A stretch of 10,543 bases of DNA from an uncultured Bacillus sp. (GTDB taxonomy: Bacteria; Bacillota; Bacilli; Bacillales_B; DSM-18226), in assembly GCF_946478885.1 (NCBI RefSeq), contig NZ_CAMLDX010000112.1:1-10543 (forward strand), written 5' to 3'. A program made the position numbers and the translations under genes. This document shows, piece after piece, positions 1-10,543 of this stretch (positions are counted from its first letter, which is position 1; each line of letters starts with the position of its first letter). The notes beneath the pieces were generated by a model. The model was not told where the DNA came from and did not search any database. It was given only the letters and a program-made list of their open reading frames with translations.

Positions 1-35
1 AAAATCACAAGCAGCTTGAGTAAGGAAAACGGCAT

Positions 36-80
36 ATTTAAAATAAAGGCTGATCCACAGGAACCAGCCTCTTTTGCTTT
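36..80 (-). terminator. Terminator of the protease gene, possibly bidirectional
   Basis: AGGCTG (47-52) pairs with CAGCCT (65-70), and TCC/GGA (54-56 with 60-62) extends the stem inside the loop. Read on the minus strand the hairpin is followed by TTTATTTT, just after the protease stop codon at 80-82. The plus strand also has a T-rich run (71-80), so the same hairpin could end transcription entering from the left edge. Confidence 0.75.
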
Positions 81-1459
81 TATTCCTCTAGATTTTGCGT
101 ATTTTCTTCTGTCCCTTTCTTCTGCTGACTCCTCTGTTCATCTACCCTATGCATTTTTCCAAACTCTTTTTGAGCGGTTATGGTATTCTCGCGGGGGATG
201 ATGGCATCAGTTCTCGTTGAACTAGCCCTCTTCGGCTTAAAGACAAAGGTAAAAAGCATTAGGAAAATGATGACCAGAACCAGTATACCATCAATTAAAT
301 AGAACAGTGTTTTATACTCTGACCAGAGAATCTTGCTTGCGTCGATTTTATTTTGTGAATCAGCGATATAATCTTTCACTTCTGAATGATTTGGATAAAT
401 TCTTGCAACAGCCTCGAATTTTTCCAATGCATCTTTGTAATAACCGCCCCAGTATAATTCTAACCCTTCTCTGTAGAGCTTATCGGCACGTCCGCTTTTG
501 TTTTTTGCGCCCGCCTGATTGACAAATTCCTTCACTGTATTAACGGGAACTGCAAAATTAAAGCCCTGCACTTCTTGACCATTGACTGTATCTCCGCGGA
601 ATGTTAATAATCCGATGATGTCTCCTTTTTCATTTATGACCGGACCGCCGCTGTTTCCATGCGTTGCAGCCGCATTAATTTGAATAACAGGACTGCCGCC
701 CTGCTCCAGCGTTTTGGAAGCGGAAGAAACCTGTCCGCCATTCATCGATGACTCCAGTAAAGAATCAGTTGAGAATAAATCAGACTCTGCCGCGGCCGGA
801 TAGCCAATGACCCAAATATTATTCTGATTTTCTACAGTATCAGAGTTTCCCAGCTTTAAGGTTGGTAAATCCTTCCCTTCTATTTTTCACACCGCAACGT
901 CTTTTCCTTGTGTTACAGGAGCTCCATAACTTTTCACCTCACCATCTAATACCTTGCCATCCGGTAAAATAACCTTCAGAACCCTTGTAACATGGGTATA
1001 TTCCGAGTAGGTCCACATATATTCATAGGCTGTTTGAACATCCACCTTAAAATATTCGGCCACTATTGCAGCCAGCTTTTCCAAGCCCCTTGTGGCCAAT
1101 TCAATATCTTCAAGCTGTGTCCCCTCCACTACATGGGCATTTGTTACGATATAGCCGTCAGGACTGATGACGGCTCCAGAACCTGATCCGCCGATATAGG
1201 TTTGATAATTCATTTCAGCTAAAAGAGTATCAACTTCAACTCCAATGTCACTCCAAAAATCATAAAACTTCCAATCAATGACCGCATATTCGACAATTCG
1301 GACAACTGCGGGTTTAGAATACTCAGATATTTTTTGTGCCCGGGAAATTTTCGCTGTGTCAGGCTTAATATTCATTAAAACAAATGAGGCAATAATTACT
1401 GCAATGAGCAAAACACTAATCGGCACGGTGAAAAAAGCCCTTTTTTTCAGAATAATCAC
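80..1459 (-). pseudogene. Membrane-anchored trypsin-like (HtrA/DegP-type) serine protease, interrupted by one in-frame TGA
   Basis: The frame runs 459 codons with a single stop (TGA at 889-887). Both sides of it are in the same frame and together form one S1-family protease. An N-terminal membrane segment (residues about 11-30) is followed by the protease domain. The His is in VTNAHVVEG (H109), the Asp in GKDVAV (D187) and the Ser in HGNSGGPV (S270). The stop falls at residue 191, right after DVAV, where the family usually has Leu followed by KI, so TTA/TTG to TGA is the likely change. An insert of about 45 residues between His and Asp, rich in Tyr and Glu, is unusual. After the protease come a TPR-like helical pair (about 325-363), a second membrane segment (about 386-408) and a charged cytoplasmic tail. 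No PDZ domain is seen. The likely role is an extracytoplasmic protease anchored at both ends. Without readthrough only an inactive fragment lacking the catalytic Ser would be made. Confidence 0.8.
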
Positions 1460-1463
1460 CTCT
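1448..1463 (-). promoter_or_regulatory. Ribosome binding site and doubtful start codon of the protease gene
   Basis: The minus strand reads AGAGGTG (1463-1457) and then ATTATTCTG. The only standard start nearby, GTG at 1459-1457, is part of this Shine-Dalgarno-like run and has no binding site of its own. The spacing best fits CTG at 1450-1448, which starts the basic stretch before the membrane anchor. A TTG changed to CTG would explain this and fits a gene already losing function. This is inference from spacing only. Confidence 0.4.
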
Positions 1464-1604
1464 GGTCATCTGGATAGAATGCCTTTGATCAAATCCAATA
1501 TATTCTTTAAGAAGGAAAAATAAATTTTGTACGAAAAAAATATTAGCAGCTCGTTCAAGCACAAAAATAAGGTTTTGGAGTAAAAACTAGGAAGATGATA
1601 GGAA

Positions 1605-1640
1605 GCCAAATAAAAAGCTGACCTTATTCAAGTCAGCTTT
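1605..1640 (-). terminator. metA terminator containing the stop codon
   Basis: Perfect 8-bp stem: AAGCTGAC (1615-1622) pairs with GTCAGCTT (1632-1639) across a 9-base loop. On the minus strand it is followed by TTTATTT. The metA TGA (1635-1633) lies within the first arm, so the coding region ends inside the hairpin. Confidence 0.85.
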
Positions 1641-2556
1641 CATCGGGATTAATCCAATCATATGGAGTTTCCTGATATACATAATAATTCAGCCAATTGG
1701 AAAATAAAAGGTGTGCATGTGAACGCCAGCGGTTTAATGGTTGTTTTTCCGGATCATTATCCGGGAAATAGTTGACCGGAATTTGCGCCGGGACCCCTTT
1801 TCTCAGGTCGCGCCAATATTCTTCTGCCAATGTTTGTGCTTCGTATTCTAAATGGCCGGTTATCATAATTTGTCTTCCGCCGTGGGCACACATAATAAAA
1901 GGGCCGGCCTCGTTTGAGGTTGAAAGTATTTTAATAGCGGAGCAATTCTCTAAATCTTCCAATGATACGTCAGTATGTCTGGAATGCGGCGCAAGAAAAA
2001 CATCATCAAATCCACGCAACAATTTTTCCGAGCGGTCATTCACAATATGCGAGAAGATCCCGGAACATTTTTGCGGAAGTTCGTACTTATTGATACCAAA
2101 ATGATGATACAGGGCAGCCTGCGCTCCCCAGCAAATATGAAGAGTGGAAGTAACATTGGTTTTCGTCCAATTCATAATTTCAATCAGTTCATCCCAATAG
2201 TCAACTTTTTCAAACGGCAAATTTTCTACCGGTGCTCCAGTGATGATCATCCCATCAAATTTTTTATTTTTAACCTCTTCAAATGTCGTATAGAATTGCT
2301 CAAGATGATACGGGGTAGTATGCTTCGATTCATAAGTGACCGTTTTGAGAAAATAGATATTGACCTGTAAAGGGGTGTTTCCTAAGAGACGCAAAAGATG
2401 AGCTTCGGTCTTTTCCTTTTCCGGCATCAGGTTTAGAAGTAAAATGTTCAATGGACGGATATCTTGTTTACTAGCTCTTTCATCGTCCATGATAAATATA
2501 TTTTCTTTTTCCAGTATTTCTCTTGCTGGAAGAAGTTTAGGTATTTTAATAGGCAA
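1633..2556 (-). CDS. metA: Homoserine O-acetyltransferase (MetA/MetAA type)
   Basis: The gene makes 307 residues, the normal length for MetA. The enzyme acylates the hydroxyl of L-homoserine, the first committed step of methionine synthesis, in the cytoplasm. The sequence starts with the typical [11 protein letters not shown] block. The nucleophile is Cys142 in [16 protein letters not shown], with His235 and Glu237 in ITGHLEYE. Residue 111 is Glu ([10 protein letters not shown]). In this family Glu at this position goes with acetyl-CoA and Gly with succinyl-CoA, so acetyl transfer is expected despite the common label of O-succinyltransferase. Translation starts at TTG (2556-2554), with AAGGAGA at 2570-2564 seven bases upstream. 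The gene is monocistronic, divergent from fhs, and ends in its own terminator. No SAM riboswitch or T-box fits in the leader of about 25-30 bases implied by the promoter. Confidence 0.95.
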
Positions 2557-2591
2557 AGTATCATCTCCTTGTAAGATTTAATAATAAAAAT

Positions 2592-2620
2592 ATTATAATA
2601 ACCTTTCTCATTTGTAGCAA
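2592..2620 (-). promoter_or_regulatory. Sigma-A-type promoter of metA
   Basis: On the minus strand, TTGCTA (2620-2615) and a perfect TATAAT (2597-2592) are separated by exactly 17 bases. The TTG start of metA is about 35 bases further on. The -35 box matches TTGACA at four of six positions. This is seen directly; use in the cell is inferred. Confidence 0.65.
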
Positions 2621-2673
2621 TGATATTACTGAAGCTTATCAAAATAATAGCACAAAAGGCTGACAAACAATGA

Positions 2674-2709
2674 TACAATGAGGTGAAGAAATTGCTTAAG
2701 TATGGAGGT
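2674..2709 (+). promoter_or_regulatory. Possible -10 box and the ribosome binding site of fhs
   Basis: TACAAT (2674-2679) could be a -10 box, but no good -35 box lies 16-18 bases upstream, so the promoter call is weak. GGAGGT (2704-2709) sits six bases before ATG 2716. It fixes that codon as the start rather than the in-frame TTG at 2683, which has no ribosome binding site. Confidence 0.5.
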
Positions 2710-2715
2710 ATCAGC

Positions 2716-4404
2716 ATGAGTGTAAAAATTACTGTTAAATCTGACATTGAAATTGCTCAACAATCATATGTAAAGCCTATTAAAGAAGTTGCAGAGACGA
2801 TCGGCTTAACAGAAGATGATTTGGAGCTATATGGGAAATATAAAGCGAAAATATCCTTTGATACTTTAAAAAGACTGGAAACAAAAGAAAGCGGGAAAGT
2901 CATTCTCGTTACAGCTATCAACCCGACACCTGCCGGGGAAGGGAAATCTACAGTTACAGTTGGTCTTGGGGATGCATTCAAAAAACTTGGCAAGAACGTT
3001 GTCATTGCCTTAAGGGAACCCTCACTTGGACCTGTAATGGGAATAAAAGGCGGTGCCACTGGAGGCGGCTATTCTCAAGTGCTTCCGATGGAAGATATCA
3101 ATTTGCATTTTACTGGAGATTTTCACGCGATTACGTCTGCTAATAATGCTCTTGCTGCTTTACTTGATAATCATCTTCAGCAGGGAAATGAACTGAAGAT
3201 CGACCAAAGACGTATTGTTTGGAAACGGTCTTTGGACTTGAATGACCGTGCGCTGCGCAAGGTCATTGTCGGATTGGGCGGTCCGGCGCAAGGAGTACCG
3301 CGTGAAGATGGTTTTGATATTACTGTAGCATCTGAGATCATGGCAGTTTTATGCCTAGCGTCGGATTTACAGGATTTGAAAAAACGTTTGGCAAGAATTG
3401 TGGTTGCCTATAACATCCATAAGCAGCCTGTAACGGTAGGCGACCTTGGAGTTGAAGGAGCTCTCACCCTGTTGTTAAAGGATGCGGCAAAACCAAATCT
3501 TGTCCAAACAATTGAACATACTCCGGCCCTTGTACACGGAGGACCTTTTGCAAATATTGCCCACGGTTGTAACAGTGTCATTGCCACCAAGGCAGCCTCA
3601 AAGCTTGGCGACTATGTGATTACGGAAGCAGGATTCGGTGCTGACCTAGGAGCAGAGAAATTTTTAAATATTAAAGCGAGAAGCGCTGGTATTAAACCGG
3701 AGGCCGTTGTCATTGTCGCCACTATCCGTGCTTTAAAAATGCACGGCGGTGTGGCAAAGACGGACCTAGGCAAGGAAGATATTCAAGCGTTAAAACGTGG
3801 GTTTGCCAACGTGAAAAAGCATACGGAAACTATTGCCAGTTTCGGGCTGCCTATGGTCATTGCCGTTAACCGGTTTATTACTGATACTGCTCAAGAGGTT
3901 GAGACACTTGTAAACCTGTGCGAACAGGAGAATTTGCCGGTTTCCTTAACTGAGGTTTGGGAAAAAGGCGGTGCCGGGGGAGTGGATCTGGCTAATAAAG
4001 TACTGGAAGCAATGGAAAAGGGCGAATCCGGCTATCATCCATTGTACGAGCTTTCCGATAGCATTGAGGAAAAAGTCCGAACCATCGTACAAAAGGTATA
4101 TGGCGGCAGAGATGTTGAATTATCCTCGAAGGCGAGAAAACAGCTGCGTGAGTTTGAGGAATTCGGCTGGGATAGCCTGCCTGTTTGCATGGCAAAAACA
4201 CAATACTCTCTTTCGGACGATCCGCTTAAGCTTGGCAGACCGGAGGATTTCACGATCAGCATTCGCGAATTTAAGCCGTCTATCGGAGCGGGATTCATTG
4301 TTGCCTTAACCGGCGATGTGATGACTATGCCAGGCCTGCCAAAAGCTCCTGCAGCATTGAAAATGGATGTAGATGACAATGGGAATGCTGTTGGGCTGTT
4401 CTAA
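2716..4404 (+). CDS. fhs: Formate-tetrahydrofolate ligase
   Basis: The product is 562 residues, close to the usual 555-560. The enzyme uses ATP to join formate to tetrahydrofolate, giving 10-formyl-THF for purine synthesis and initiator-tRNA formylation. The ATP-binding loop is TPAGEGKST (residues 71-79). It is followed by the family block around residues 101-122 ([13 protein letters not shown], then ATGGGYSQ), by [15 protein letters not shown], and by the C-terminal [15 protein letters not shown] motif. The reading frame is intact. Start ATG 2716 is set by GGAGGT six bases upstream. It is divergent from metA, so two one-carbon/methionine genes share a control region. The gene ends in TAATG, shared with the next gene. 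Confidence 0.97.
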
Positions 4405-4925
4405 TGTTTGATCCCACCGCATTTGAAAATATTCGAGTGGTGATGGACGGGCTATTCTATGATAAAGATCTGAGCGGTGAAATCATCATTACAGATCGTA
4501 ACGATTTCATCAATACGGCAAAGCTGTCAAGGTCGTATGACTTGTCCTTCCAATTGCCTTCTTTGAACAAGCCGCAGGTGACATGCAAATTTATCTTAAC
4601 GGCCGGCCTTGAAAACTTGTCAGCAGAATTGCTGCAGTTGTCCGAAGACCTTGCCGGCTGTTGCGCAGCGATAGAATTTACTATGAGGCATCATTACAGT
4701 GAACCGTTATTTTTGAAAATAGAAGAATTATTATCAGATATTTGGGGCGATAGTAGAAGGATTCGGGTGACTGTCTGCCGTGAAACTCTTTTGACACAGC
4801 AAAAGGTTCACTATACAGGCAATGTTTCATTTAACCGAATCATTCAGGAAGAACAAATAGAGGATTTAACAGAAATGGCTGAGTACATGATCATTACACT
4901 CAAAAGACTGGAAGAAATGATATAA
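4404..4925 (+). CDS. Protein of unknown function translationally coupled to fhs
   Basis: The product is 173 residues with no family I can name. Its ATG (4404-4406) shares one base with the fhs TAA (4402-4404), and there is no good ribosome binding site in front. It is probably translated by ribosomes finishing fhs. It has no signal peptide or membrane segment, so it is likely cytosolic. Visible features are a mixed beta-rich N-terminal half (residues about 8-70), a pair of cysteines (GCCAA, about 90), an acidic helix and a charged C-terminal helix. The tight overlap suggests a role linked to one-carbon metabolism, but this rests on position only. It is not a shadow frame, because it is the sole long open frame here and it ends just before an intergenic hairpin. 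Confidence 0.8.
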   Translation: MFDPTAFENIRVVMDGLFYDKDLSGEIIITDRNDFINTAKLSRSYDLSFQLPSLNKPQVTCKFILTAGLENLSAELLQLSEDLAGCCAAIEFTMRHHYSEPLFLKIEELLSDIWGDSRRIRVTVCRETLLTQQKVHYTGNVSFNRIIQEEQIEDLTEMAEYMIITLKRLEEMI

Positions 4926-4952
4926 ACGCAAAAGAGGCTGTAACGATTTGGC

Positions 4953-5076
4953 AAGGAGCTGTCTCATAAGGTGTTAGGCATCTACCATGGATCTATATCC
5001 CGTACAGAGTGATGAAAGGGAGACGAGATACTGGATTGTCGTGCCTGACACCTTTACTTTTGGGACAGTTCTTTTT
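4953..5076. repeat. Long imperfect hairpin repeat, possible terminator, between the fhs operon and the hydrolase gene
   Basis: A left arm (4955-4981, containing GAGCTGTCTCA and AAGGTGTTAGGCA) pairs with a right arm (5041-5073, containing TGCCTGACACCTTT and TGGGACAGTTC). The middle has a weaker stem (TATCCCGT with ACGAGATA). The right arm ends in TTCTTTTT, so it can act as a plus-strand terminator for fhs and its partner. GTGCCTGACACC-type sequences recur between genes in some Bacillaceae, as far as I recall, so this may be one copy of a dispersed family. Part of the right arm recurs at 8285-8300. Confidence 0.6.
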
Positions 5077-5219
5077 ATGCTCAAAAATATCAAAACCGTG
5101 CTGTTCCAATACCCATAAATGAAAATCATCTATTTGTCTAAATTTTGGCAAAGGAAGGATCCTTTAGGGGAGGCATAAAAAGCGAATTTTGTCGGATAAA
5201 GTAGAAATTGAAATATAAC

Positions 5220-5263
5220 TGTAATATATCTATTACAAAACTGACAAATTGTGATGGTATACT
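5220..5263 (+). promoter_or_regulatory. Candidate WalR box and promoter of the NlpC/P60 hydrolase gene
   Basis: TGTAAT (5220-5225), five bases, then TATTAC (5231-5236) matches the WalR box TGTWAH-N5-TGTWAH at 11 of 12 positions. TATACT (5258-5263) is a good -10 box, while the -35 region is poor (TTACAA at 5233-5238, 19-base spacer), as expected for an activator-dependent promoter. WalRK controls wall hydrolases of this class, including cwlO (yvcE), in B. subtilis. The same bases also form an inverted repeat TGTAAT/ATTACA, so another regulator is possible. Confidence 0.45.
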
Positions 5264-5269
5264 ACCACT

Positions 5270-5453
5270 AGTTGAGTTAAGGAGAATGTCTAAATCTGAC
5301 ACCCTCTCAGATTCAAATAGGAAAAATCGTTTTCTAATACATAATTAATATTACAAAAATAGTATAAATATTGTCGAACGGCAACGAAGTTTGAACTTAT
5401 CAAGGACCTGATACAGTGAAGGTATTGCCTTAGGATGCAGGGAGGATTTAGTT
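5270..5453 (+). promoter_or_regulatory. Long structured 5' leader of the NlpC/P60 hydrolase mRNA
   Basis: If transcription starts just after the -10 box at 5258-5263, the mRNA leader is about 185 bases and holds no gene. It contains a perfect 7-bp hairpin, AATCTGA (5293-5299) with TCAGATT (5307-5313), loop CACCCTC. A long-range GGCAA (5380-5384)/TTGCC (5425-5429) pairing lies just before the ribosome binding site GGGAGG (5440-5445). A second possible -10 (TATAAA, 5363-5368) could give a shorter transcript. B. subtilis cwlO is also reported to have an unusually long leader affecting mRNA stability. No known riboswitch is recognised. Confidence 0.45.
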
Positions 5454-6617
5454 TTGAAAAAGAAAATCATAACACTTAGTACAACCATCATGCTTGGAAT
5501 GGGAGGTATTCTTACAGTACCGGGTATTAATGCACATGCAAATGTCCAATCCAGTATCAACAAGGCTCAACAAGAGCTTAGCACTTTACAGACGAAAAAA
5601 GCTGATCTTGAAGCGCAAATCACAAAAATGGAACAAGCAATCAAGGATAATAATACTAAGGTTGAAGAAACAAATACTCAAATTGCTCAAACGCAGACCG
5701 AAATTGAAGCACTTAATAAGGAAATTGCTGCGGTTCAGGAACGAATCGTACAGAGAACAGAGATTTTGAAAGAGAGAGCGGTTTCATATCAGGAAAACGG
5801 TGGACAGGTTGGATATTTGGATGTTATCTTAGGCGCTTCTAGTTTCGGTGAATTTATTGACCGTCTTGGTGCTGTTGCCACTCTGTTTGAGGCTGATTCA
5901 GAAATCATCAAACATCTTGAGGAAGATCAAAATACTTTAAAAACAAAACAAGCCTCGGTTGAAAAGAAATTAACCGAATTAAATACGATGAAGGTTGATT
6001 TAGAAGAAATGCAGGCACAAATGGCTGAACAAAAGGCTGAGAACGAAGCATTAAAGCAACAATTACAGTCAGATGAAGCAAACAGCCTTGCTGAAATTGC
6101 CAGCCTGCAACAGCAACAACAAAGTACACTGAATTCAGTGGTTAAATCTCTGAAAAGTGCACCAGCAAACACTGGCAAATCAGCTTCTGCTAATACAGTG
6201 AATGCAGCGCCTTCTCCGGGAGCAACAGGTAGTATTTCAGCAGTCATTAATGCAGGATACAGATATATTGGGAATTCTGTCTATGTATTTGGTGGCGGCA
6301 GAACGGCATCTGATATTGCCAACGGTCGATTTGATTGTTCAGGCTTTGTTTCTTGGGCATTTTCTCAAGCAGGTGTTAGAATCGGGGCCAGTACGTCTGC
6401 TTTAAGAAATACAGGAACGAGAGTATCGCCAAGCGATATGAGACCTGGAGATTTGGTATTCTTCAACACAGTCAAAACAGATGGTCATGTCGGCATCTAC
6501 CTTGGTGGCGGAAAGTTCATTGGCTCACAATCATCAACAGGTGTTGCGATTGCCAATATGTCTGGCGGCTATTGGGCAGGTGTATTCAGTGGAAGAGTAA
6601 TGAGAATTTTAAACTAA
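5454..6617 (+). CDS. Secreted coiled-coil NlpC/P60 peptidoglycan hydrolase, CwlO-like (C40 peptidase)
   Basis: The product is 387 residues. A signal peptide (residues 1-29, cleavage after AHA) is followed by a long coiled coil (about 31-215, rich in Gln, Glu and Lys), a Ser/Ala/Asn linker (about 215-255) and a C-terminal NlpC/P60 domain. The catalytic Cys is 295 (FDCSGF), the His is 345 (DGHVGIY), and the third polar residue is probably Gln359 in FIGSQSSTG. Enzymes of this type cut the D-Glu to diaminopimelate bond in peptidoglycan peptides. In CwlO the coiled coil couples the enzyme to the FtsEX transporter for wall elongation, a role likely here but not shown. Start is TTG 5454 with GGGAGG eight bases upstream. 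It is somewhat shorter than B. subtilis CwlO, so it may be a paralogue. It is monocistronic, with a WalR-like site in front and a strong terminator behind. Confidence 0.9.
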   Translation: MKKKIITLSTTIMLGMGGILTVPGINAHANVQSSINKAQQELSTLQTKKADLEAQITKMEQAIKDNNTKVEETNTQIAQTQTEIEALNKEIAAVQERIVQRTEILKERAVSYQENGGQVGYLDVILGASSFGEFIDRLGAVATLFEADSEIIKHLEEDQNTLKTKQASVEKKLTELNTMKVDLEEMQAQMAEQKAENEALKQQLQSDEANSLAEIASLQQQQQSTLNSVVKSLKSAPANTGKSASANTVNAAPSPGATGSISAVINAGYRYIGNSVYVFGGGRTASDIANGRFDCSGFVSWAFSQAGVRIGASTSALRNTGTRVSPSDMRPGDLVFFNTVKTDGHVGIYLGGGKFIGSQSSTGVAIANMSGGYWAGVFSGRVMRILN

Positions 6618-6624
6618 TAGATGC

Positions 6625-6656
6625 AAAAAGGTGGGAGCAAAATCCTGCCTTTTTTT
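6625..6656 (+). terminator. Intrinsic terminator of the NlpC/P60 gene
   Basis: A 12-bp stem with two G-T pairs: AAAAAGGTGGGA (6625-6636) with TCCTGCC and following T residues (6643-6654), loop GCAAAA, ending in seven T residues. It lies eight bases after the stop codon. The group II intron remnant begins directly after the T run, the usual target position of class C group II introns. The A run before the stem means it could also work on the minus strand. Confidence 0.85.
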
Positions 6657-6839
6657 GTGTGCCAGGCATGGCAACTATCTAGGTGGTGAAAGGTCCACTG
6701 TGGGGGGACACATCGACCAACCACTAAGGAAGCGCAAGGTACTTATCGTGAGATAAGGGCTAGAGGAAGCGTGGAATAAAATCTTGGCTCGACGAACAAA
6801 AATCTGATACTAAGGCTCTATAAAGGGATGAGGCTCCCA
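6657..6839 (+). mobile_element. Group II intron 5' end (domain I remnant)
   Basis: This stretch has no open frame but resembles the start of a bacterial group II intron. It opens with GTGTG (matching the 5' consensus GUGYG), then CCAGGCATGG and AGGTGGTGAAAGGTCCACT, a stem-loop of the kind found early in domain I. Further along come GGAAGCG repeats and a short CTTATCGTGAGATAAG hairpin (about 6741-6756). It lies directly after a terminator. No reverse transcriptase or maturase follows; similarity stops where the IS4 transposase fragment begins (about 6840). The match is from memory of intron structure, so a covariance model search would settle it. Confidence 0.55.
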
Positions 6840-6840
6840 T

Positions 6841-7244
6841 TCCGAACAAGAAATTGTCCGTATTTACGGCATCCGTTGGGATATCGAAGTATTCTTTAAA
6901 ACGACTAAATGGCTCCTTCGCTTACAGAAAGAGTTTCAAGGACGCTCATATGACTTACTTATCAGTCATACAACGATTATTTTTACTAGATATATCATTC
7001 TTTCTTGGCAAAATCGTTGTCACACCGATGAACGTATATTAGGTGGATTATTTTATGACCTATGTGACGAAATAAATGAACTTGATTGGGCTGTCGCGTT
7101 GCAATTAATCGAGCTTCTTCAAGATGTCTTGAAGAAGACAAATAAACAAACACAACAATTACTTAAAATCAACTATTACAATGGATTGCAGGTTTACCAA
7201 GCTACATTAAAGCTTACCTGCCTGATTTGGTCTGCGAAAGTTGA
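6841..7244 (+). pseudogene. IS4-family transposase, C-terminal fragment with a frameshift
   Basis: Reading from SEQEIVR, the frame carries YGIRWDIEVFFKTTK, which fits the IS4 signature Y-(2)-R-(3)-E-(6)-K exactly and includes the third catalytic acidic residue. It continues through LQKEFQGRSYDLLISHTT and GGLFYDLCDE to KTNKQTQQLLK. At about 7167-7171 an A run is one base short. Shifting frame there recovers QLLQWIAGLPSYIKAY and LPDLVCES, with TGA at 7242-7244. The first two-thirds of the transposase are missing here; the N-terminal part is found inverted at 9771-10376. No inverted repeat is seen after the stop, as Fn3 coding sequence follows at once. Cannot be active. Confidence 0.88.
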
Positions 7245-7411
7245 GTTATCAAGTAACAAAAAACAACGTGGTGATTTATACAGGCTCAGATTTATCTTTT
7301 ATAGATACTAATGTGGCTCCTCGAAAAACATACGTTTATGAAATTGTTGCTGGTAATGCTTCAGGCGTAAGTAAAACTGCTAATATTACTGTTCAAACGA
7401 GCAAGCGGTAA
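7245..7411 (+). pseudogene. 3' end of an extracellular protein gene: second half of an Fn3 domain
   Basis: From 7247 the frame reads YQVTKNN, VVIYTGSDLSFIDTNV, APRKTYVYEIVAGNASG and VSKTANITVQTSKR, then TAA (7409-7411). This is the C strand through G strand of a fibronectin type III domain: Y.V, then DT.V.P.T.Y.Y.I.A.N..G.S, then a terminal ITVQT. The domain has no start and no A/B strands here. The matching first half, ending NWSAV, is on the minus strand at 10377-10429. The IS4-family transposase separated the halves and the inversion then moved this one. The stop codon touches the group II intron 3' end. Confidence 0.75.
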
Positions 7412-7505
7412 TAGGGTAACTTCTTTCGAGGCTACCCCCTCATCAAACCGTACGTGCCCTATTAGGGGTAGCGTTAGGAAAAACCGTTTTCTGCCGAGAC
7501 CCCTA
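7412..7505 (-). mobile_element. Group II intron 3' end (domains V-VI remnant)
   Basis: Read on the minus strand, this holds GGGCACGTACGGTTTGATGA, very like the 3' strand of group II domain V. A domain VI-like hairpin follows (TACCC 7433-7437 with GGGTA 7414-7418) and an end at CCCTAT. On the plus strand, domain V pairs AAC/GTT, TAC/GTA and CCC/GGG with mismatches, so it may be decayed. It follows directly on the DDE transposase fragment and ends at the Fn3 stop codon. After undoing the inversion it lies downstream of, and in the same orientation as, the intron 5' end at 6657. Confidence 0.5.
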
Positions 7506-7738
7506 TATACAAAAGTGACCAAATTGAAATGTAGTTTTGCTTTCTTTCCGGTACGATGGCAGACATTGTTTACTTGAAAGAATTCTTTCAAGTAGGCATT
7601 TACCCTTTCAATTGCTGTTCTTTCGGCAAATAGATCTTTCCATTTTTCTGAACCACATGCCGAAGCCATATATTTGTATGCATCAAATAGGCCACACCTG
7701 TATTTTTTAGAGGGCATATTTTACGTTTACGACCGTTT
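7506..7738 (-). pseudogene. DDE transposase, C-terminal fragment
   Basis: The fragment reads KKYRCGLFDAYKYMAS, then EKWKDLFAERTAIERVNAYL, KEFFQVNNVCHRTGKKAK and LHFNLVTFVY. ERTAIERVNAYLKE is the conserved C-terminal block of a DDE transposase group common in Bacillus and Clostridium, containing the catalytic Glu. Upstream, KNGRKRKICP in the neighbouring frame joins on if one base is missing at about 7710. The match ends at FVY, where intron-like sequence takes over. No N-terminal two-thirds and no terminal repeats are seen. It starts directly after the stop codon of the membrane protein gene. Confidence 0.7.
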
Positions 7739-8158
7739 TTATAGTTTTTCCTCACTGGTGAAACCGATGAAATTGATAATTAGAATAAAAATAGGAAAGA
7801 ACATCAATGCTCCTATTGCAAGAAGACCTGTACTAGGATTAGGAGCGTCCCCTCCATAGGTTATCGGGAATAGAGAGGCAATGATATATGCAAAAAGAAC
7901 AAAATATGGAACCCAAAGGATAACTGTCCAAAAGTTTGCTTTTCGATTTTTTAACCACTTTTTTGTTAGGAAAAAGAGCAGGATTATATCAAATATAAAT
8001 ACAACAACAATAGTTATACTACTTAATGTATTTACATCACCAATATTCCAACCCGTTAGTCTACTAATCCTATAAACATTAGCCATAAGTTCGATTGGAA
8101 AAAGTATCATAAGAGCATATAGAATGCTGACCACATTTAATTTAAAGAAATATTTCAT
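7739..8158 (-). CDS. Four-helix integral membrane protein, unknown function
   Basis: The product is 139 residues and the frame is intact. Start ATG (8158-8156) is preceded by GAGGGGA at a suitable distance. Four hydrophobic segments are visible, at about residues 5-26, 46-65, 76-98 and 111-133. A basic loop (KKWLKNRK, 66-73) after the second helix points to the cytoplasm, and a Gly/Asp/Pro-rich loop (101-110) probably faces out. The C-terminus is short and acidic (TSEEKL). I do not recognise the family. It is the only intact gene among the mobile debris, so it is either a remnant of the original chromosome or cargo brought in with an element. Its TAA abuts the DDE transposase fragment, so the native C-terminus may have been trimmed. 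Confidence 0.75.
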   Translation of the reverse strand: MKYFFKLNVVSILYALMILFPIELMANVYRISRLTGWNIGDVNTLSSITIVVVFIFDIILLFFLTKKWLKNRKANFWTVILWVPYFVLFAYIIASLFPITYGGDAPNPSTGLLAIGALMFFPIFILIINFIGFTSEEKL

Positions 8159-8245
8159 TTGAAAATCCCCTCGTATATTATGTTTAGGCTCCTCTTAAGG
8201 AGTCCGTAATCCTTACTTTTCCTGTAATAAATCATATTTCTTGGG

Positions 8246-8300
8246 TGTCCCGAGATATTTCTAGATAATGAGATTAAGATCATTTGGGACAATTCTTTTT
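8246..8300 (+). repeat. Hairpin resembling the intergenic repeat arm at 5061-5076
   Basis: TGTCCC (8246-8251) pairs with GGGACA (8286-8291) over a 34-base loop, followed by ATTCTTTTT. TGGGACAATTCTTTTT (8285-8300) matches 5061-5076 at 15 of 16 bases, so it may be a worn copy of the same repeat and a plus-strand terminator-like structure. The rest of 8159-8345 holds no gene. It contains the leader of the membrane protein gene and a small CTCCT/AGGAG hairpin (8189-8202). Confidence 0.35.
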
Positions 8301-8359
8301 CCCCCTGTGGGCTTAACCACATTTTAAGACTGTTTCTCAGTGTACGTGCGCGCAGGCTG

Positions 8360-8480
8360 TTCTCCCTGTTCTTCGAACCTAGATGATAGTAGCTCTAGGG
8401 TGGCTTTCGAATCAGGGCAAGTTCTGATGCACGAGGTTGCTGGTCGGTGTCCACACCAGAGATATCTCAGGGCATCATAG
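8360..8480 (+). ncRNA. Candidate IS110 bridge RNA
   Basis: IS110-family recombinases are guided by a noncoding bridge RNA made from the element end next to the transposase gene. This stretch just upstream of the IS110 gene folds into two stem-loops, each with an internal loop, the layout expected of target- and donor-binding loops. Stem 1: CCCTG (8364-8368)/CAGGG (8413-8417), TTCGAA (8372-8377)/TTCGAA (8406-8411), CCTAGA (8378-8383)/TCTAGG (8394-8399). Stem 2: TGATGC (8425-8430)/GCATCA (8472-8477), CTGGT (8440-8444)/ACCAG (8455-8459), with large unpaired strands at 8431-8439 and 8460-8471. Ends of the RNA and loop specificities cannot be set without the intact element ends. Confidence 0.6.
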
Positions 8481-8503
8481 AAATGTACGGATGATTCTAT
8501 TTG

Positions 8504-8520
8504 AAAGGAGGGGACACCCC
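8504..8520 (+). promoter_or_regulatory. Ribosome binding site of the IS110 gene, masked by a small hairpin
   Basis: AAAGGAGGGG (8504-8513) precedes ATG 8521. GGGG (8510-8513) can pair with CCCC (8517-8520) across ACA, hiding part of the binding site right at the start codon. This would damp translation of the transposase. Confidence 0.5.
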
Positions 8521-9695
8521 ATGAAATTATTTGTTGGTTTAGATATTAATTCTTTTGATATTAAAGTTTGTATATTGGACGGTGAAGGTGAAAAACTTCA
8601 ATCTTTTTCCGTTTCTAATGATCTACCAGGTGCTACACAGCTGCGTGATCACATTTTAGAATGTACGAAGAACCAGACTATTCAGGCCTTAAAAATTGGC
8701 TTAGAATCTACATCCGTTTATAGTTTTCAACCATCTATGTTTTTGCACCATAATGAATCACTTAAAGGGCTTGGTACTAAAGTGTTTGTCATGGATCCAA
8801 AACAGATTGCCAACTTTAAGAAAAGCTATTCGGATATGGATAAGACGGATGAAATTGATGCGTTCGTGATTGCGATTATCTTCGATTCGATCGTAATTCT
8901 ATGTCCGTCGTGAAGGGAGAACAATATATTGCCTTACAACAATTGACTCGTTCACGTTACCAACTCATCCATCAGGTGACAAAAGAGAAATAACATTTCT
9001 TACAGCATTTGAGTTTTAAATGTAATACCTTTTCTCAGGAGGTTGATTCTTCCGTCTTCGGAAATGCCATGATGGATATGTTCTCTGAAAAGTTCAGCCT
9101 AGATGAACTAGCAGAAATGCTGTTAGAGAATCTGGCAAAATTCCTTCAGGAGAATGGTAAAACCGATTTAATGACCCTGAATGCGTAGCAAAATCTATTC
9201 AGAAAGCTATGCGTTCTTCGTATCGTCTAGATAAAGTGGTCGAAGATTCGATCGATCTTCTCCTTGGCACATCGATTGAAGTGATTCGAACAAGTAAAGG
9301 AGATAGAAAAAGGCATTGAGCACATCATGGCTGGCTTTGATGAGACACAGATTCTTCAATCCATCCCCGGGATTGGACCAGTATTCACGGCTGGTATTAT
9401 CGCTGAAATTGACCAAATTGAGCGTTTTGAAGATGAAACGAAAATAGCTAAATATGCCGACCTATACTGGCGAAAACACCAATCAGGACGATTCACTGCA
9501 GACGATACTTTCCTTTCTCATAACGGGAATCAATACCTTAGATATTACTTAGTTGAAGCCGCCAACTAAGTAAGAAGGCATATCCCCGAGTATCACGAAT
9601 ACTACGCTAAGAAATACAAGGAAGTACCGAAACATCAGCACAAAAGAGCACTCGTACTAACCACAAGAAAATTTGTGCGTTTGGTAGATGCGCTA
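8521..9695 (+). pseudogene. IS110-family transposase, decayed
   Basis: The start MKLFVGLDINSFD is typical of IS110. The DEDD acidic residues are visible as D8, E62 (GLESTSVYS), D110 and D113 (DKTDEIDA). The C-terminal domain shows SIPGIGPVFTAGIIAEIDQ and YWRKHQSGRF with the conserved Ser, then NGNQYLRYYLVEAAN. The gene is broken at least five times: a one-base loss at about 8873-8874 (GCGGAT to GCGAT), TAA at 8991-8993 replacing Gln, a one-base loss in an A run at about 9159-9162, a frame-changing indel at about 9290-9305, and TAA at 9567-9569 replacing Ser. Reading past the last stop gives RRHIPEYHEYYAKKYKEVPK and LTTRKFVRLVDAL, after which similarity ends at about 9695. The 75 bases from there to 9770 are unassigned. 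It cannot be active. Confidence 0.92.
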
Positions 9696-9770
9696 ATTAA
9701 TCCTTTTCTAAATTCCAGTATTTGTGATATAATTTCTGGTTTAGTTTAGTGCGGCTTTTTTCGAAAAATG

Positions 9771-10376
9771 GATCAGGCGCAGACTGGAGAGCTTCTACAC
9801 GGCGCTTGTAACCGGAACATCATTTATCAATTTCTTCATTGATTCCATTAATAGAAGACGTTTTTGAGCTTAGTAAAGGGAAGTCAATTGGCATGAAGGT
9901 ATGCCCGTCTGACCAGCCTAATGTAAGCATTCGAAATCCTTTATAAAATCGCATCTTCAAGGAAGCATGATCAAAACAACGGGCAAGCAACTCTACATTC
10001 TTACTACGATTTCGATCAAATGTAGAGTCATCAATAATGAGCACTTTTGGACGCTCCTTTGATGTAAGTACGCTAACTTTTTGAATGATAGCTACACTAA
10101 AGTATAAAAGGAACTTCCGCAAGCAAACTTGGAATGATTTAAAAAACGATAGACGGTATCTTTGCCCGGATAACGCACGCTCTTTTTGGATGTAACAAGG
10201 GCAAACCAATTTTTTTGATGAAAGATCAGGCTAAAAACAAGCTGAAACAAAAAGGCACATGAAAACCCAAAGCTTTTTCGAATGCCTGCTTGGCGCAGGT
10301 ATTTCGATACTTGTAATTCAGTGAATACTGCAGAAAGTTCATTTGGTAGTTGTTCAATTGAGTGTTTTTCCTTAGC
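9771..10376 (-). pseudogene. IS4-family transposase, N-terminal half with frameshift and stop
   Basis: From about 10373 the minus strand reads KEKHSIEQLPNELSAVFTEL, then YLRQAGIRKSFGFSCAFLFQ, QKNWFALVTSKK and PGKDTVYRFLNHSKFA. A one-base loss at about 10118-10121 (TGGCGG to TGCGG) breaks the frame. It resumes as RKFLLYFSVAIIQKV and ERPKVLIIDDSTFDRNRSK, which holds the first catalytic Asp. It continues through ELLARCFDHASLKMRFYKGF and LTLGWSDGHTFMPIDF to NGINEEIDK. A TGA (9822-9820) replaces the next codon, probably CGA (Arg), and CSGYKRRVEALQSAPD follows. The match stops there. The C-terminal part is at 6841-7244 on the opposite strand. The first codons continue in frame from the Fn3 fragment, so the element end and native start are missing or not recognisable. 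Confidence 0.88.
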
Positions 10377-10543
10377 AACCGCACTCCAGTTTAATGTAAC
10401 TGAATTGCTTGTCACTTCAGTTGCGTGAAGTTATTAGGTGTTAAAGGAGCGCTAACCTTTGGATCTGTTACGATAGGATTTACAACAGTATCTAGACTTT
10501 TAATAGGTGCCTGAATTAAGCCATATCCATAATATTTATCTTT
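10377..10543 (-). pseudogene. Subtilase-like C-terminus joined to the first half of an Fn3 domain; gene continues past the right edge
   Basis: The minus strand from the window edge reads KDKYYGYGLIQAPIKSLD, and YGYGLIQA is the motif that ends the catalytic domain of S8 subtilisin-like proteases. After a linker (VVNPIVTDPKVSAPLTP) comes NNFT, then TEVTSNSVTLNWSAV one frame over, the A and B strands of an Fn3 domain ending at its conserved Trp. Restoring one G at about 10424-10426 would give FTATEVTS in one frame, so a one-base loss is likely. Coding sequence then runs straight into the IS4 transposase. The missing second half of the domain is at 7245-7411. The intact protein would be a secreted protease with a C-terminal Fn3 module. 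The protease body lies outside the window. Confidence 0.65.

Follow-up and report, generated by a model that had tools for sequence, protein, structure and literature searches.

The right-hand part of a 10,543-nucleotide stretch of DNA from an uncultured Bacillus sp. (assembly GCF_946478885.1, contig NZ_CAMLDX010000112.1, positions 1 to 10,543; here called the window) is best explained, with a probability of about three in four, as a decayed insertion zone (6657-10543) in which an insertion sequence (IS) of the IS4_4 group broke into a gene for a subtilase with an Fn3 domain, sequence was lost, and a segment of about 2.93 kb was then inverted. According to the proposed order of events, the IS4_4 element would have entered the subtilase-Fn3 gene and then been deprived of 343 bp in the middle and of its left end before the segment from 6838/6840 to 9767/9770 was turned around. 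The inverted cargo would have comprised the C-terminal part of the IS4 transposase gene, the C-terminal half of the Fn3 domain, the 3' end of a group II intron, a scrap of an IS1182-family transposase gene, a small gene and an IS110-family element. The inversion would have parted the two halves of the interrupted gene and brought the transposase C-terminal part to its present place beside a second truncated group II intron behind an NlpC/P60 gene, with the new joints probably made by illegitimate end joining.

The identity and polarity of the transposase pieces are plain. The plus strand at 6840..7246 encodes the C-terminal part of an IS4_4 transposase and ends with the right end of the IS, CTGCGAAAGTTGAG; the minus strand at 9771..10373 encodes the N-terminal part. 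Alignment to a 453-residue transposase (P0001), the closest to both halves among four proteins compared, assigns 6841-7241 (plus) to residues 319-453, with a frameshift near 7167, and 10373-9772 (minus) to residues 3-203, with a frameshift near 10120 and an in-frame stop codon at 9820-9822, and the two halves do not overlap in the residues that they cover. The NCBIfam profile for the group (NF049925) is matched at 2-75, 69-177 and 314-423 of 449, each match scoring too low for the cut-off set for whole proteins, which is to be expected of fragments. Full-length copies in one genome (G172), which both lie at contig ends (L138, L139) and are perhaps one copy seen twice, have 90% sequence identity to 6840-7246 and 91% to 9771-10373. 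The split of an IS4-family transposase into a plus-strand C-terminal part and a minus-strand N-terminal part, first proposed from a sequence-only reading of the window, is thus borne out. Among the matches listed, with two candidates scored per genome, there were at least 19 places where both halves lie no more than 1.5 kb apart on one contig, and in 19 of the 19 listed the two halves match the window on opposite strands and so are co-oriented there; the usual state of the element is thus co-linear, and the window is the exception.

The ends of the element were set by two copies on plasmids of Alicyclobacillus fastidiosus, which have CTCAACTTTCGCAG on the left, CTGCGAAAGTTGAG on the right and 7-bp target duplications that were read by eye; 13 bp of this terminal inverted repeat are present in G172, where the full length of the element (L139) is about 1.53 kb. 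The window is like the other members of the group, one of which (P0028) is named ISDha5 by its source, in its transposase profile and right inverted repeat, but differs from them in consisting of two opposite pieces with the middle and the left end gone. Missing are the 343 bp between the halves (L139 1634-1976), the 172 bp on the side of the Fn3 N-terminal part that hold the left end, the leader and the first two codons (L139 858-1029), and the left flank of the insertion. On the plus strand, the right end is exact and the Fn3 C-terminal half follows it directly; because the exact end sits there, this is a true insertion junction. Viral contigs contributed eight transposase loci with 28-68% identity, which were not used further.

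Each transposase part adjoins a piece of Fn3-like coding sequence. The piece at 7247..7411 on the plus strand, identified by its frame and by alignments, is the C-terminal half of an Fn3 domain and runs to a stop codon, and the piece at 10374..10543 on the minus strand, identified from its frames and alignment to L168, is the C-terminal end of a subtilase domain followed by the N-terminal part of an Fn3 domain, with a one-base frameshift between approximately 10412 and 10430. When the halves are joined with five X at the gap (the author's choice), the result matches PF00041 over profile positions 2-79 of 84 with 22.6 bits and an E value of 1.2e-4, short of the curated cut-off of 25. By itself, the N-terminal half scores 17 bits, and the C-terminal half has no match. 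The five-residue gap aligned without further gaps in six of the eight loci looked at (L159-L162, L164, L168), and one more residue was found in the other two (L163, L166). The S8 subtilase L168 (705 residues) aligns along all 115 joined residues with 30% identity; in L168 itself, Pfam reports no Fn3 domain at E values up to 0.001. Like L168, in which a subtilase domain (PF00082) is followed by an Fn3-like stretch, the window has the KDxxxGxGLI end of an S8 domain and then an Fn3-like stretch, and it differs from L168 in the IS4 interruption and the frameshift. Because an S8 subtilase aligns along the whole join, the description of the interrupted gene as a subtilase-Fn3 gene is probably right. 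The further claim that the two pieces are matching halves of one Fn3 domain is favoured by the match of the joined sequence and by the L168 alignment, and is weakened by a score below the cut-off and by a C-terminal half that matches nothing by itself.

After a flip of 6838/6840-9767/9770, the two transposase parts and the two Fn3 halves all lie on the minus strand in the right order. An inversion is the simplest account of these four coherent pieces, although extra deletions are needed: the two IS4::Fn3 halves would once have been one copy, parted by a single inversion. The losses required beyond the flip are the 343 and 172 bp of the IS4 element, about 15 bases of the Fn3 domain (if the gap is five residues), and parts of both introns and of the IS110 element. 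A clean inversion without loss is ruled out by the absent 343 bp. Several observations weigh against the inversion. The flip leaves 343 bp of the IS4 element unexplained; no un-inverted relative was found among the NlpC/P60 loci and the IS4-matching genomes, which included no close relative with the region; and the joined Fn3 sequence scores below the Pfam cut-off while its C-terminal half finds no match alone. The joined Fn3 protein is also matched in 66 of 193 genomes, so Fn3 domains are common and complementarity alone is no proof of one gene. The breakpoints share 5 bp (CCATT/AATGG). Among 20,000 random pairs, with a shift of three bases either way allowed, about 10% show microhomology of at least 5 bp, so the shared bases do not point to any mechanism. 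The 25 of 37 inverted-repeat pairs listed include no long one that links the breakpoints, and recombination between repeats is therefore not indicated; inversion by way of inverted repeats was rejected, the shared 5 bp being at chance level. The idea that CAT at 6838-6840 is a residue of the IS4 sequence AAATCCCAT concerns too few bases to be weighed.

The alternative that survives best, though it is unlikely, is that the assembler linked unrelated pieces of a genome rich in repeats, perhaps a metagenomic one, at 6838-6840 or 9767-9771 and that no inversion took place in the cell. Both joins do lie inside mobile elements that many relatives carry, often at two or more sites. However, where repeats cause a misjoin, an intact copy of the shared repeat is normally left at the join, whereas the joins of the window are non-homologous and lie inside truncated elements, and complementary halves of both an IS4 element and an Fn3 domain are not expected from a random misjoin. 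It is quite unlikely that two separate IS4 copies of opposite orientation were inserted in two Fn3 genes and each partly deleted: two copies of such an IS are present in some relatives (for example, G013, G015, G101 and G127) and Fn3 genes are abundant enough, but two independent insertions at the same place in Fn3 with the same polarity would be required, followed by deletions that happened to leave complementary halves. Catalysis of the inversion by the RNA-guided recombinase of the IS110 element, the right part of which lies at the 9767-9771 breakpoint, with damage to the element's own end, is very improbable because that end is truncated by about 60 bp.

The inversion had been given a second witness in the sequence-only reading, which took a group II intron 5' end on the plus strand and a 3' end on the minus strand to be the two ends of one intron. 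A 5' end on the plus strand beginning at about 6657 is confirmed: the piece at 6657..6837, just behind a putative terminator of the NlpC/P60 gene, is the 5' piece (domain I) of an intron of a family here called A (the names A and B are those of this analysis), cut off at 6837. It has 92-97% identity to introns at seven loci and matches the domain I structure RF02001 with 42 bits against a cut-off of 32, although the last part of that match extends into IS4 sequence. The copies of intron A at L142-L146 and L151 are 87-99.6% alike over about 1,860 bases with one open reading frame of 440 codons, and Rfam detects domain V at its cut-off in L142, L143, L145 and L146 and not in L144 or L151. The seventh locus, in Niallia endozanthoxylica (G002; L086 1599-1828), has another truncated 5' piece of the same intron, about 230 bases long and cut at a different place, and lacks the remainder. 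The 3' end is on the minus strand as proposed, but it covers 7467 to 7412 and does not reach 7505. This piece (7412..7467), within the domain V/VI stretch according to the RF00029 coverage in L152, has 96% identity over 56 nucleotides to intron B of L152 and L153, the full copies of which span about 2,182 bases with a 488-codon frame, and 86-91% identity to L154, L155, L156 and L158; Rfam scores domain V above its cut-off in the full copies and below it in the cut copy of the window. The 38 bases at 7468-7505, which separate the intron B piece from the IS1182 scrap, match neither neighbour's family, and nothing beyond a 12-base word was found for them.

Cross-comparison separates the two pieces. 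Aligned locally, the 5' piece reaches a score of 330 at the beginning of intron A and 16 at the beginning of intron B, where shuffled sequences average 15.9; the 3' piece reaches 102 at the terminus of B and 17 at that of A, and 14 of 300 shuffles attain the latter score. The 5' piece has no match at E values up to 1 in L147, L152-L156 and L158, a set in which a whole copy of intron B is known only for L152 and L153, and the matches of the 3' piece in the seven intron A loci are all short words of the kind that chance produces (best E value 1.7). A single split intron was therefore rejected on the cross-alignment scores and the comparison of A and B copies: the pieces belong to two different, unrelated introns, of about 1.86 kb and 2.18 kb. 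Both resemble group II introns of Bacillaceae, the 5' piece with 92-97% identity to A and the 3' piece with 86-96% identity to B-like introns, and differ from whole A and B introns in that only the 5' piece of A and the 3' piece of B are left, without a reverse transcriptase. Because the introns are different, they are no second witness to the inversion. The earlier expectation that flipping 6840-9770 would make both elements colinear again consequently holds for the order and orientation of the IS4 and Fn3 pieces and fails for the intron, as there is no single intron to realign; the transposase gene remains incomplete after the flip (the 343-bp gap, the 172 bp gone at its other side, frameshifts and a stop codon).

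The ancestor envisaged in the same reading, a subtilase-Fn3 gene converging with the NlpC/P60 gene, was seen in none of 80 loci of NlpC/P60 relatives (the best 80 of 99, each with flanks of at most 10 kb per side; in five, contig ends left under 5 kb on the downstream side). At E values up to 1e-8, the L168 subtilase matches one of these loci (L057), upstream of the NlpC/P60 gene and not downstream. Only two of the 80 (L001, L002) share the homoserine O-succinyltransferase gene of the window, and both have an ABC-F-like gene, so named by reading its sequence, at the 3' side of the NlpC/P60 gene and in the same direction. The relatives examined are too distant to disprove a convergent subtilase for the lineage of the window, and the window alone supports one. 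A full account in which one inversion realigns a split IS4 element and a split intron next to such an ancestor can hardly be maintained: the orientations of the pieces are as described, but the intron pieces score to different introns, the IS4 element is incomplete after the flip, and the ancestor is found in no relative examined.

The minus strand at 7506..7678 holds a fragment from near the C-terminus of an IS1182-family transposase (residues 14-69 of the piece match NF033551 at 422-478 of 488), with 79% identity to L157 over 7506-7660. The gene at 7739..8158 (minus strand) encodes 139 residues that read like a membrane protein; it has no Pfam or NCBIfam match, and has homologues in five other genomes, with 82-90% nucleotide identity to L148/L112 (the same place), L149, L150, L113 and L115. 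The IS110-family element on the plus strand (8167..9766, identified by profile and by comparison with G010, its left end at approximately 8167) shares 85% identity with G010 and 70-75% with named copies on plasmids of Priestia, Cytobacillus and Bacillus, and differs from other elements of this RNA-guided recombinase family in Bacillaceae by its frameshifted gene and a right end short by about 60 bp. Elsewhere (L088 1798-2184, in G001), a 128-codon frame seemingly fuses an N-terminal stretch, IS110-like to the eye, to the N-terminal part of the IS4 transposase described above. No record in the plasmid collection (0 of 440 matching records) or the phage collection (0 of 5) contained 80% of the stretch.

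Position 6640 divides this debris, a row of truncated mobile elements to its right, from open reading frames to its left for homoserine O-succinyltransferase, formate-tetrahydrofolate ligase, a 173-residue protein and the NlpC/P60 protein. Its protein relatives place the window in the Bacillaceae. The NlpC/P60 gene, an intact gene at 5454..6617 on the plus strand for a PcsB/CwlO-like peptidoglycan hydrolase (PF24568, PF00877, and relatives), has an identical counterpart on one 2,973-base contig (source 'lgn'), and its nearest named relative is the protein of Bacillus benzoevorans (73%). The formate-tetrahydrofolate ligase gene (2683-4404) lies between those for homoserine O-succinyltransferase and the 173-residue protein, is not at that place in the syntenic L001 and L002, and has no match in the 80 NlpC/P60 loci. 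An HtrA/trypsin-like protease gene on the minus strand (80-1459) contains a single in-frame TGA at 887-889, where the sole matching relative locus (L002) encodes leucine; the gene is either a pseudogene or carries a base error.

The locus is best read as a collection of truncated elements (pieces of two introns and of IS4, IS1182 and IS110) with one likely inversion of about 2.9 kb and several deletions. The decay of mobile elements here is real and ordinary, and the second witness claimed for the inversion was wrong; a literature search found nothing on such a locus, and its significance beyond itself is small. Scraps of two different group II introns can pass for one split intron, and where an inversion is deduced from debris, each piece needs to be tested against intact copies before it is counted as a witness.

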